Assembly (NCBI GenBank): GCA_026417155.1
Contig: JAOADU010000045.1
Location: forward strand, 1 to 54,695
Length of the DNA stretch: 54,695 nucleotides
Source of the DNA: Bacteroidales bacterium
GTDB taxonomy: Bacteria > Bacteroidota > Bacteroidia > Bacteroidales > GWA2-32-17
Direction: 5' to 3'
The stretch's first letter is position 1. Each line of letters starts with the position of its first letter. A program made the position numbers and the translations under genes. The notes under the pieces were generated by a model that saw only the letters and a list, made by a program, of their open reading frames with translations, was not told the DNA's origin and ran no database searches. Below, one piece after another: positions 35,295 to 40,211 of this stretch.

Positions 35295-38186
35295 ATGAAT
35301 AGAATATTATTATTCATTGTTTTATTAATTTTTTCTACAAGTTTAATAGCACAACCTCAGAAACAAAAACGTAAATGCGCTACCGAAGAAATACATCAAC
35401 AACTTATTCAACAAGATCCTACTTATTTAGAGCGTTACAATCAGCTTCAAGAATTTGTTAGAAAGTTTGTTGAGCAACATCCTAATGGCTATTCGCCCAA
35501 AGCTGTAATTACTGTTCCCGTAGTGTTTCATATTGTACTTTCGCCATCTCAACATCAACAATTTCCCGATCAACGAGTACATGAACAAATTCAGGTTTTA
35601 AATCGTGATTTTGCAGGACAAAATCCTCATTCTATGGGTGCTTTCCCTGCAAATTTGAAAGCAAATACAGAGCTTCAATTTTGTCTAGCAACCGTTGATC
35701 CCAATGGGAATCCTACTACCGGAATTGAGCGAAGAGACTATACGGGTCCTCAATGGGGAACAAATCCAGGGGTAAAGCATTATTCTCAAGGTGGTTTAGA
35801 TGCATGGGACCCCAATAAATATTTGAATTTATGGGTAGCCGATCTCGGCAATGGTTTGTGTGGATATGCTTTATATCCTGTTGCACCGTTAAGTAATGAA
35901 TTTGGATTAGTAAATCATTGGGAATTTACAGGATTAACAGGTGCAGTTGCTCCCTATAATCTAGGCGGAACAGCTACTCATGAAATAGGACACTGCTTTA
36001 ATTTGAAACATATTTGGGGCGATTCGTCCGGATGTTCGCCCGATGATGCTTGCAATGATACTCCCTTACAAGATCAAGAAAATTACGGAACACCTACTTC
36101 ACCATTAACCGATCAATGTTCGCCTAATCCTCCGGGTGTAATGTTTATGAATTTTATGGATTATGTTGACGATATTGCATATGCTAATTTTACCCCCGAT
36201 CAAAAAACTCGCATACAAGCATGTTTTGCACCAGGAGGTCCCTTATATCAGTTAGGACAATCAACTGCGTGTGGAAATTTGACTAGTGATACTGTGCATG
36301 CAAACTTTAGTGGAAGTCCATTATCGATACCCGTTGGCGGTACCGTTAATTTTACTGATTTATCGACAGGAAATCCAACATCGTGGCAATGGACATTTAC
36401 TGGTGGAACTCCGGCCACTTCAACACAACAAAATCCAACAGGCATACAATATAATGCTGTAGGCTTATATTCTGTTAAATTAAAAGTCTCGAATGCAATT
36501 TCATCCGATAGTATTACCAAAATAAATTATATTGAAGTATATGATCCTAATGCAGTTCATGCCGATTTTGTTGGTAATCCTACTACTTTAATTGCAGGAG
36601 GTACGGTTCAATTTACCGATTTAAGCACGAATAATCCAACATCATGGTCGTGGCAATTCCCTGGCGGAACTCCTTCGAGTTCAACTCAAAAAAATCCAAC
36701 AATAACATACAACACACCAGGTACATATAATGTTTCGCTCACTGCATCAAATGGTAGTACTACAGATAGCGAAATAAAAGTTAATTATATTACAGTTTTG
36801 GACACTACTCAAGCTCCAAATGCCGATTTTATTGCCAATTACACTTTAATTCAACCTGGAAGTTCCGTCAATTTTACTAATTTATCTACAGGATATTATG
36901 ATTCTTTATTATGGATATTTGAAGCTGCCACACCTTCAACTTCAACTCAAACAAATCCAACTAATATTACGTATGATAGTATAGCATGTTTTGATGTTAC
37001 TTTGATATTGTATAGTGTATTAGGAAACGACACATTAAAAAAGCCCAACTACATTTGTGTGTTAAATCCAAATTATACTGATACTGTTAAAGCTAACTTT
37101 CATGCTATAACGTCGCGCTTGATAGTACAAGGCGGAAGTGTTAGTTTTGAAGATTTATCGTACGGTCCTATAACAAGTTGGAATTGGTATTTTGAAGGCG
37201 GTACTCCATCTACTTCAACAGTACAAAATCCTATGAATATTGTTTATTCTACTCCAGGGATATATGATGTACGATTAGTCGTACAAAGTGGTTCATATAG
37301 AGACACATTAGTTAAAAATGATTACATTGTGGTAACGACCGAACCATGGCCAGATCCTAATGGTTTTTGCGATACAACCGGAAATATCATGAATGGCGAG
37401 CATCCTTTAGTATTTATACATTTGCGTCCTAATAGATGGGGTTATATTCCAGGTCACAATCAAAGTCAAATTAAATACTATGCCGATTTACACGTAAATT
37501 ATACTGCAAGCAATGTTAGAGGAATAATTGTGCCCGTTGTAAAAGCCTATGGTGCGAATTCTACGAACAAAGTGCGATTTACTATTTGGGATTATGATAC
37601 ATTAACGGGTAAGCCCGGCGCAGTTTTAGGATACAAAGATGAAATAATAAATAATTTTACTCCCATGTTGTACAAGTCTGTATTGTTTAATTCTCCTGTT
37701 CCTGTAAATGGAAAATTTTTCGTTGGTTATCAATTATATTACAATAATCCTGTCGATACCTTTGTTGTGTACATGGCACCCAATAGAGGTCAAAACGGAA
37801 AGAACACAATGTTTTTATCAAAAACCCCAACTGGTTGGATGACACTTACTCAATTTTTCAATGATACATTGGTTTATAATACATCTTTAGCTATTAAAGT
37901 TGTGGGTTGTTTAGTTGGGATTGACGAAAACGATATAAAGCAGTGGACAGTTTTATATCCCAATCCTTCATCAGACAAAATCACGTTAGAAATATTACAG
38001 GATAAGGTAAGCGATGTTCAATTTGAAGTTGTTGATGTTTTGGGTAAAATAGTAAATGTTCCTGTAGTAAATACATACCAAAATAAACAATATGAATTTA
38101 ACATTAATAGTCTATATCAGGGAGTTTACTTTATTCGTGCAAAAATAAATGGTCAAAATGTAACGTATAGATTTATCAAAATGTAA
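35295..38186 (+). CDS. Secreted M43-type metalloprotease with four PKD domains and T9SS tail
   Basis: A 963-residue extracellular protease. After a signal peptide (to about residue 20) comes a pappalysin-type M43 catalytic domain: HEIGHCFNLKH places zinc ligands His229, His233 and His239 and catalytic Glu230, and FMNFMDYVDD provides the Met-turn. Four PKD beta-sandwich domains follow (about 332-416, 418-500, 505-590, 596-680), each with the F-x-D/N-L-S-x-G and WxWxFxGGTP-type core. After a further beta domain, the C-terminus is a T9SS type A sorting domain (LYPNPSSDKITLEI ... GVYFIRAKINGQ). It probably degrades external protein after outer-membrane translocation. It ends at a strong shared terminator. 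Confidence 0.93.
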   Translation: MNRILLFIVLLIFSTSLIAQPQKQKRKCATEEIHQQLIQQDPTYLERYNQLQEFVRKFVEQHPNGYSPKAVITVPVVFHIVLSPSQHQQFPDQRVHEQIQVLNRDFAGQNPHSMGAFPANLKANTELQFCLATVDPNGNPTTGIERRDYTGPQWGTNPGVKHYSQGGLDAWDPNKYLNLWVADLGNGLCGYALYPVAPLSNEFGLVNHWEFTGLTGAVAPYNLGGTATHEIGHCFNLKHIWGDSSGCSPDDACNDTPLQDQENYGTPTSPLTDQCSPNPPGVMFMNFMDYVDDIAYANFTPDQKTRIQACFAPGGPLYQLGQSTACGNLTSDTVHANFSGSPLSIPVGGTVNFTDLSTGNPTSWQWTFTGGTPATSTQQNPTGIQYNAVGLYSVKLKVSNAISSDSITKINYIEVYDPNAVHADFVGNPTTLIAGGTVQFTDLSTNNPTSWSWQFPGGTPSSSTQKNPTITYNTPGTYNVSLTASNGSTTDSEIKVNYITVLDTTQAPNADFIANYTLIQPGSSVNFTNLSTGYYDSLLWIFEAATPSTSTQTNPTNITYDSIACFDVTLILYSVLGNDTLKKPNYICVLNPNYTDTVKANFHAITSRLIVQGGSVSFEDLSYGPITSWNWYFEGGTPSTSTVQNPMNIVYSTPGIYDVRLVVQSGSYRDTLVKNDYIVVTTEPWPDPNGFCDTTGNIMNGEHPLVFIHLRPNRWGYIPGHNQSQIKYYADLHVNYTASNVRGIIVPVVKAYGANSTNKVRFTIWDYDTLTGKPGAVLGYKDEIINNFTPMLYKSVLFNSPVPVNGKFFVGYQLYYNNPVDTFVVYMAPNRGQNGKNTMFLSKTPTGWMTLTQFFNDTLVYNTSLAIKVVGCLVGIDENDIKQWTVLYPNPSSDKITLEILQDKVSDVQFEVVDVLGKIVNVPVVNTYQNKQYEFNINSLYQGVYFIRAKINGQNVTYRFIKM

Positions 38187-38257: not shown

Positions 38258-38443
38258 TTACTGTTTAACAGTTGTATCCATAGTAGCATTCAACGAATCA
38301 ACTTGCGAGTTGAGTTCTTGAACAGCTTGGTCTAAAGCTTTGTTTAATGAATCTAAAGCTTGCTGTTGTTCATTTTGACCACCACCGCAAGAAGCTAATG
38401 CAAACATTGAAACTACGAAAATTCCAAAAACTACTTTTTTCAT
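38258..38443 (-). CDS. Small coiled-coil lipoprotein
   Basis: A 61-residue protein with a lipoprotein signal (MKKVVFGIFVVSMFALASC, lipid-bearing Cys19) followed by GGGQ and a 35-residue amphipathic helix with repeating Leu/Val positions (ALDSLNKALDQAVQEL), probably a coiled coil. The ATG at 38449 (MNMKK) is an alternative start. It is reminiscent of Lpp-like envelope peptides in form but shares no clear sequence with them. It stands alone, with a shared terminator. Function unknown. Confidence 0.7.
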   Translation of the reverse strand: MKKVVFGIFVVSMFALASCGGGQNEQQQALDSLNKALDQAVQELNSQVDSLNATMDTTVKQ

Positions 38444-38505
38444 GTTCATAAATTTTAAGTTAAACAATTAAAGAACTTTACAACCATTAATATTTTAAAA
38501 AAATA

Positions 38506-38559
38506 AAAGGTAACCCACCATAATTAAATTTTTTTTTGAAAATTTGATGGGTTACTTTT
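38506..38559. repeat. Inverted repeat over the sigma-factor promoter
   Basis: Arms AAAGGTAACCCA (38506-38517) and TGGGTTACTTTT (38548-38559) are complementary at 11 of 12 positions, the exception being G-T. The spacer is 30 bases and T-rich. The right arm covers most of the -7 element of the sigma gene, so it could be an operator or a transcript hairpin. Confidence 0.6.
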
Positions 38560-38560: not shown

Positions 38561-38590
38561 CATATGAATAAATATTAATTTTAAGAATAA

Positions 38591-39151
38591 ATGAATATTC
38601 GTTCACCATTTAATGACGATGAATTAGTTCAAGGTATTAAAGACAACAACTCTATGGTTATTTCGTACATATATAAGAAAAACTATCCCACAATAGCAAA
38701 CTTTATTCGATTAAATGGTGGAAATGATGACGATGCAAAAGATATCTTTCAAGAATCATTGATAACTTTATTTCATAAAGTACAACAAGAAAATTTTTCT
38801 TTAACATCAAAGTTAAATACATATATATATTCTATTGCCAGAAATCTTTGGCTAACAGAGCTTAAGCGAAAACAAAAAAATACCGACGATATTAACGAAG
38901 TTGAAGAATTTTTGCCCAATGATGAACTACTTTTAGATGACATTGAACTTATAAGACAAAATCAGAAAAGGTTAATGTGGAGTTTGGAAAAATTAGGCGA
39001 ACCCTGTAAATCTATATTATCCTATTTTTATTTTTATCAATGGTCGATGCAAGAAATTGCCGAAAAAATGGGTTACACAAATGCAGAAAATGCTAAAAAT
39101 CAAAAATATAAATGTTTGCTAAGATTAAAGAAAATTTATCAGAAAATGTAG
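38591..39151 (+). CDS. ECF-type RNA polymerase sigma factor
   Basis: A 186-residue sigma-70 family protein with only regions 2 and 4, hence ECF group. Region 2 (about 20-95) holds DDAKDIFQESLITLFHKV and the -10-reading TYIYSIARNLWLTELKRK; region 4 (about 125-185) holds LGEPCKSILSYFYFYQWSMQ and the helix-turn-helix EIAEKMGYTNAENAKNQKYK. It recruits RNA polymerase to a dedicated regulon, unknown here. The gene for its likely partner, an anti-sigma-like membrane protein fused to a protease, begins seven bases downstream. Confidence 0.93.
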   Translation: MNIRSPFNDDELVQGIKDNNSMVISYIYKKNYPTIANFIRLNGGNDDDAKDIFQESLITLFHKVQQENFSLTSKLNTYIYSIARNLWLTELKRKQKNTDDINEVEEFLPNDELLLDDIELIRQNQKRLMWSLEKLGEPCKSILSYFYFYQWSMQEIAEKMGYTNAENAKNQKYKCLLRLKKIYQKM

Positions 39152-39158
39152 GCAAATT

Positions 39159-40211
39159 ATGAAGAATACAAGATTAATAGAATTGTGTGAAAAATATGTT
39201 AACGATTGTTTGAACGAACAAGAAAAAAATGAGTTACAATTATTTGTTAATGCTTCTGAGTCTAATAAACAACTATTTGAAGAGAATTTGAATTTTATTA
39301 AAGAATTAAACAATTTTGGTAAGTATTATTTGTTTGAGCAAAATGTAAAGCAAGTTTCACGACAATATGAGGAGTCATTCAAAAATGTTCGCAAGCAATT
39401 TACTCTTTCTTCGGTAATTCCATACATATCTGTTGCCGCTGTGAGTATAGTTGCTGTTTTATTTACATTATATGTTTCGGGATGGTTTTCATATAAGCAA
39501 CAAATTCAAGCATACAGACAATTGTCAAATTCTATTACAACAATTTCAAAAAATCAAAAATCGCTATGGAATACTTTATTTTCTACCAATGAAATTACTT
39601 ATGTTCGAGGTACAGCTTTCGCAATCTCTTCAGATGGATTATTAGCTACAAGTTATCACCTTGTCAAAGATTACGATTCTGTTTTAGTTATCAATGCTTC
39701 TGATTCGAGTGTTAAAATGCATGCAAAACTTGTTGCTTGCGATAAAAATTTGGACATTGCCATATTAAAAATTTCTGATTCTGTTTTTGCATCCATTAAA
39801 AATATACCATACAGCATCAATTATAATTTTCCTGTAGAATTAGGTACTTATGTTTATAGTTTAGGTTTCAGCAAAAGTAGTATAGTTTTTGGTGAAGGCA
39901 GTATAAGTTCGTTCACAGGATTTAATGAAGATACCAATAGCATTCAGGTATCTATTCCTACTAATCCTGGAAACAGCGGAAGCCCTGTATTTAATCAGTA
40001 TGGCGAGGTAATAGGAATAATTTGCGGAAAAAATGATGGAAAGGAAGGAAGTACTTATGCTTTACATTCTAAAGTTTTGAAGAATATTTTAGATAGCTTA
40101 TCAAATAATAAGTTCAATAGAATTTATTTAAAAAATACGATTAAATACCTACCAAAAAATAAACAAGTATCTAAAATTGTTCCTTATATTTTTAAAATCG
40201 AGATTTATTAA
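39159..40211 (+). CDS. Anti-sigma-like membrane protein fused to a trypsin-like protease
   Basis: A 350-residue protein in three parts. Residues 1-80 are a cytoplasmic helical region whose CLNEQEKNELQLFVNASES stretch matches the L-x-x-x-E-x-x-E-L/F pattern of Bacteroidota anti-sigma N-termini. Residues about 86-107 form one membrane helix. Residues about 145-315 are a trypsin-like (DegP/Trypsin_2) domain with a full triad: His167 in TSYHLVKD, Asp199 in DKNLDIAILK and Ser273 in NPGNSGSPV. Topology puts the protease in the periplasm and the sigma-binding end inside. No PDZ domain is seen. Its 3' end overlaps the convergent epimerase gene by 20 bases. The anti-sigma role is inferred from position and layout. 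Confidence 0.82.
   Translation: MKNTRLIELCEKYVNDCLNEQEKNELQLFVNASESNKQLFEENLNFIKELNNFGKYYLFEQNVKQVSRQYEESFKNVRKQFTLSSVIPYISVAAVSIVAVLFTLYVSGWFSYKQQIQAYRQLSNSITTISKNQKSLWNTLFSTNEITYVRGTAFAISSDGLLATSYHLVKDYDSVLVINASDSSVKMHAKLVACDKNLDIAILKISDSVFASIKNIPYSINYNFPVELGTYVYSLGFSKSSIVFGEGSISSFTGFNEDTNSIQVSIPTNPGNSGSPVFNQYGEVIGIICGKNDGKEGSTYALHSKVLKNILDSLSNNKFNRIYLKNTIKYLPKNKQVSKIVPYIFKIEIY

Follow-up and report, generated by a model that had tools for sequence, protein, structure and literature searches.

A putative anti-sigma factor fused to a DegS-like serine protease and paired with an ECF sigma factor in much of the Bacteroidota

Can one membrane protein hold an ECF sigma factor inactive and also carry the protease that senses a periplasmic signal? 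The question is raised by two genes on a 54,695-nucleotide contig of a Bacteroidales bacterium (assembly GCA_026417155.1, contig JAOADU010000045.1), referred to here in its full length as the window, where an ECF sigma factor gene is followed by a gene for a putative anti-sigma protein with its own serine protease domain (Table 1). Envelope-stress sensing in Bacteroidota is, to our knowledge, poorly known. The reading favoured here, at a probability of roughly 0.6, is that the ECF sigma belongs to an autoregulated circuit whose anti-sigma factor and sensor protease would be one and the same membrane protein.

Table 1. Coordinates of the sigma factor, fusion protein, promoter and lipoprotein features in the window
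Feature	Position	Strand	Basis or remark
Small lipoprotein gene, 63 aa, lipobox ALASC, three D(S/T)x sequons	38258..38449	-	
Divergent promoter-like element, GGGTTAC-N16-ATATTAA, toward small lipoprotein gene	38487..38516	-	
Promoter-like element of sigma operon, GGGTTAC-N16-ATATTAA	38549..38578	+	
ECF sigma factor gene, 186 aa	38591..39151	+	ORF and profile matches, orthologues
Anti-sigma / S1C protease fusion gene, 350 aa (putative anti-sigma part)	39159..40211	+	
Predicted anti-sigma domain, residues 1-82, helices 3-14, 20-32, 34-81	39159..39404	+	predicted model
Single membrane helix, residues 86-106	39414..39476	+	
xAA motif V92-A93-A94, cytoplasmic side of membrane helix	39432..39440	+	AA in 288/288 relatives
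Predicted long helix (possible coiled coil), residues 109-140, bridging membrane helix and protease	39483..39578	+	low pLDDT
DegS/HtrA-like serine protease domain, residues 149-314	39603..40100	+	profile, fold, conservation
Catalytic codons H167, D199, S273	39657-39659, 39753-39755, 39975-39977	+	
Conserved C-terminal tail, residues 333-350, R-x-x-Q-I-K-K-x3-Y-V-F-x-V-K-V-Y in relatives	40155..40208	+	

The first gene product is assigned to the ECF class, with regions 2 and 4 only and a length of about 190 aa, on profile matches over cut-off to TIGR02937 (sigma70-ECF, 9.2e-20) and Sigma70_r2 (7.7e-9); region 4 models fall below cut-off by sequence, and the predicted sigma4 fold matches SigW and SigL. 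Its orthologues are 37–73% identical to the window sigma. An earlier note on this DNA had placed the second ORF seven bases after the sigma stop, a spacing borne out by the ORF coordinates. Just upstream of the module lies a 963-aa protein (35295–38186) with an M43 peptidase, three PKD stretches and a Por secretion tail, likely a type IX-secreted protease.

Full-length relatives of the fusion were found within the genus and within the family, and an even draw of 395 Bacteroidota genomes yielded them in 29. They are near-universal in two families belonging to the same class (147/157 and 145/161 genomes sampled, ∼90%), one of which is probably Chitinophagaceae, to judge from the likeness of the Flavihumibacter locus L034 to one of its members. 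A cut-off of 180 bits gave a set of 321 proteins, from which one at a contig end was set aside and three (L014, L015, L077) were rejected as family members, sharing the protease domain only and having no sigma neighbour. In all 317 remaining, testable full-length cases a homologous sigma gene lies directly upstream on the same strand, at a median gap of 3 bases; two of the pairs overlap beyond the adjacency limit set, owing to an upstream alternative start. The constant co-occurrence that the earlier note had asked to be checked is thus upheld, and the circumstance that it named as fatal, protease orthologues standing far from any sigma gene, was encountered in none of the 317. Chance adjacency is ruled out by these counts. 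Sigma orthologues (214–327 bits; next best sigma factors at most 167 bits) were found only in genomes with the fusion. Among 25 genomes in which the fusion was not found, the sigma is also absent from 24, and in the 25th it is present in a gene ending 458 bases from the contig end. The pair is conserved over a large part of Bacteroidota, so that of the ‘unusually compact’ circuit once proposed the compact architecture stands and the rarity does not, the arrangement being common in this phylum. A literature search found no paper describing the pair, which ECF group tables might still include.

The protease half of the fusion is assigned to the HtrA/DegS-type (S1C) class on its trypsin fold and H-D-S triad, with a Trypsin_2 match (3.4e-23) over residues 151–287 and best fold matches to DegS without the PDZ domain. 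Conservation was counted over 288 non-redundant pairs: the residues His167, Asp199 and Ser273, named from the sequence alone in the earlier note, occupy the catalytic positions and are invariant (288/288), as is the glycine two before the catalytic serine. The single membrane helix described there is likewise recovered, as a hydropathy peak at residues 86–104 with exactly one such segment in 282 of the 288 relatives, and the ExxEL motif is present as E22-K-N-E25-L26, position 22 being E in 255 relatives and D in 20. The N-terminus, called acidic and helical, is helical and acidic only in part (13 D/E versus 12 K/R in residues 1–82). No PDZ domain is matched in the fusion, where only 36 residues remain after the protease domain; DegS-type activation by outer-membrane protein tails is therefore not transferable to this protein. 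The last 18 residues are kept to the very end (Q336 97%, V/I at 347 99%, Y350 74%), are predicted to form a helix and a strand, and are possibly a built-in substitute for PDZ-ligand control.

The anti-sigma assignment of the N-terminal domain draws on a co-fold with the sigma factor. In many operons the reading frame runs on past the sigma stop codon into the second gene, so that natural read-through could be used, and the input comprised 57 aligned read-through translations of sigma and N-terminal domain with stops read as Ser, one of which was predicted. The co-fold with residues 1–80 that the earlier note called for, and whose failure would have counted against its reading, is obtained with pTM 0.81 and mean pLDDT 87.6 in five agreeing models, a score that, for a prediction carrying no negative control, is hard to reconcile with independent placement of sigma2, sigma4 and the N-terminal domain. 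The sigma and the N-terminal domain each reach pLDDT ∼95, the artificial linker alone being low, and the predicted sigma2–sigma4 arrangement lies 8.6 Å from an anti-sigma-bound BldN chain (136 residues), as against 15–21 Å from RNA-polymerase-bound ECF chains. Foldseek and VIA-align searches with the co-fold list sigma chains and not anti-sigma chains, an absence that says nothing either way. The predicted domain has three helices, the third of 48 residues, and its contacts with the sigma are unreadable from the model. Coevolution over 285 concatenated pairs (mean-field and pseudo-likelihood, with the protease domain of the fusion as internal control) is of too low a depth to weigh heavily: the N-terminal domain is not enriched among the top 50 couplings, and shows a weak excess among the top 200 sigma–fusion couplings (65, p = 0.002).

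Further evidence for an anti-sigma role comes from other loci. A profile of the N-terminal domain matches proteins whose genes come immediately after other ECF genes of Bacteroidota (4e-10, 2e-9, 1e-8). At loci L105, L107 and L108 the domain is followed by one membrane helix and its gene preceded by a sigma gene, the C-terminal part being TPR-like or unassigned; judged by sequence, it is a modular anti-sigma-like domain combined with different C-terminal parts. Invariant adjacency, the confident co-fold and this recurrence beside other ECF genes together support the view, taken in the earlier note, of residues 1–82 as probably the anti-sigma part of the chain. A class I anti-sigma factor (ASDI) has an N-terminal four-helix domain, with helices 1–3 on sigma4 and helix 4 on sigma2. 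The position of the gene beside its cognate ECF gene, as expected of an ASDI, is found in 317/317 cases, with no Pfam family match to the N-terminal domain and, in profile comparison with RseA as the sole ASDI compared, no signal beyond the shuffled control. ASDI partners have been found for just 6% of Bacteroidetes ECFs (PMC7406223), and with the window domain escaping both comparisons it may be either a divergent ASDI or a separate class.

How the sigma might be released is suggested by the membrane helix, in which adjacent alanines, mostly after V or I, occur at the cytoplasmic end in all 288 relatives; in controls an AA pair arises in 40% of shuffled helices, and in 3% in the outer half of the helix. 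After site-2 cleavage RseA is left with a VAA end and takes the ClpXP route. The xAA motifs of RsgI proteins also give N-terminal fragments that are degraded by ClpXP (PMC12203970). The fusion has two features of a substrate of regulated intramembrane proteolysis, namely the xAA motif in its membrane helix and a site-2 protease in the genome, encoded by one Peptidase_M50 gene, and with the RsgI and RseA precedents this makes regulated intramembrane proteolysis the best-supported route of release. On the simplest reading, the first cut would be made by the attached protease.

A shared promoter that this sigma would read, another expectation of the earlier note, was found as the consensus GGGTTAC-N15/16-NTATTAA upstream of 237 of 284 sigma genes, with a spacer of 15 or 16 only; an opposite-strand copy is also present in 137 of the 284, and the window holds both copies where 0.04 would be expected. 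Across 49 genomes that have the system there are 115 matches to the pattern and 30 to its reversed control; in 38 genomes drawn as fusion-negative the figures are 9 and 19, two of these 9 matches lying in the single genome of the 38 that does hold the sigma; a stricter pattern gives zero control matches in 12 genomes. The counts with and without the system are good evidence that the sigma reads the GGGTTAC promoter. The source genome has one further match beyond the two of the window (C50:42465), which adjoins a glycosyltransferase-like frame, looks like chance and was rejected as a real promoter. Between the -10 element and the sigma start codon lie 12 bases (38579–38590), a distance often shorter in relatives by prediction, so that the leader of the sigma mRNA may be very short or missing altogether.

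The divergent copy points to a small lipoprotein gene; of the 96 loci whose upstream sequence reaches far enough, 87 have this gene. In seven other genomes a gene of the same type stands apart from the sigma with its GGGTTAC promoter retained (L396, L401, L404, L408, L409, L412, L415). The mature lipoproteins, of ∼46 residues, carry 4.2 D(S/T)(A/I/L/V/M/T) motifs each, versus 0.84 in shuffles; this is the Bacteroidota O-glycosylation motif (PMC8550257), and the small lipoprotein is probably O-glycosylated. Neither the divergent lipoprotein nor the xAA motif figured in the earlier note. The GGGTTAC promoter also precedes small AMPK1_CBM/CBM48-like carbohydrate-binding proteins in three genomes (L377, L400, L410).

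In the circuit proposed from these observations, residues 1–82 would bind the sigma in the cytoplasm and keep it inactive, as suggested by the co-fold and the gene adjacency. A periplasmic signal would activate the DegS-like domain, which might cut its own chain, or that of an oligomer neighbour, between membrane and protease; the invariant xAA motif would then be where a site-2 protease cuts the membrane helix, and the freed N-terminal fragment would be degraded by ClpXP, both steps being modelled on RseA and RsgI. The free sigma would transcribe its own operon and the divergent small lipoprotein gene, as promoter conservation suggests. A more far-reaching version is regarded as unlikely: envelope surveillance, widespread in Bacteroidota, would run through a single self-cleaving chain of anti-sigma factor, sensor and site-1 protease and would serve to maintain one output, a tiny surface lipoprotein with heavy O-glycosylation, and the protease might monitor the export or the glycosylation state of that lipoprotein.

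Much turns on whether the protease acts on its own chain. The anti-sigma domain may be real and the protease an envelope quality-control enzyme, with its load reported by conformation or oligomer state, or with another protease cutting the chain: no cleavage site is seen in the fusion chain, another HtrA-type protease gene lies elsewhere in the source genome (G000:C75), and any proteolytic role would keep the triad invariant. Such a division of labour is nonetheless considered somewhat unlikely, as the xAA motif indicates stepwise proteolysis of the chain and the protease is always physically joined to the anti-sigma chain. Invariance of H, D, S and the glycine before the serine in 288/288 relatives speaks against catalysis being unneeded altogether, with the S1C domain a ligand-binding sensor as proposed for RsgI9 of Clostridium thermocellum. 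This is improbable, even though RsgI9, an anti-sigma-I factor with an S1C domain, is the one anti-sigma factor among the PDB sequence matches listed, polysaccharide binding is reported for that domain (PMC12203970), and carbohydrate-binding proteins lie behind the GGGTTAC promoter in the three genomes noted above.

Least probable of all is that the N-terminal domain does not inhibit the sigma but anchors it to the membrane or acts as its positive partner, a view that the missing similarity to RseA would allow; the predicted sigma2–sigma4 arrangement is closer to the anti-sigma-bound than to the polymerase-bound form, and the xAA motif in the membrane helix also counts against it. The autoregulated circuit with a joint anti-sigma factor and sensor protease is directly testable, combining as it does a near-universal pair of two families with its own promoter, a partner domain and a gene that is likely its main output; self-cleavage would make the chain a single-protein form of the DegS–RseA step, for which E. 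coli uses two proteins.

Set beside known systems, the pair shares with ECF/ASDI pairs a small helical N-terminal domain co-folding with the sigma, a gene directly downstream and one membrane helix, but its domain, unlike theirs, goes undetected by Pfam or comparison with RseA; at L105, L107 and L108 the TPR-like or unassigned part takes the place of the protease. RsgI9 (PDB 7SJY) is the nearest described relative in architecture, being an anti-sigma-I factor with a single membrane helix bearing xAA and an S1C protease-like domain outside. It differs in its Gram-positive host, its SigI-family partner and the reported role of its S1C domain, whereas the window fusion is partnered by an ECF sigma and has no RsgI domain among its Pfam matches; the periplasmic RsgI domain is credited with the self-cleavage of RsgI9 (PMC12203970), whereas the relatives of the window fusion keep their triad invariant. 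The E. coli sigma-E/RseA/DegS/RseP pathway is alike in its ECF sigma, single-pass anti-sigma factor, periplasm-facing DegS-type protease, xAA at the cytoplasmic side of the helix and M50 gene, and unlike in that the window system places a putative anti-sigma factor and a DegS-like protease in one chain without a PDZ domain, with an N-terminal domain not detectably RseA-like and a regulon that is small by motif count. The system is a variant of a known scheme, with the logic of DegS and RseA gathered into a single chain and an output that is small and conserved.
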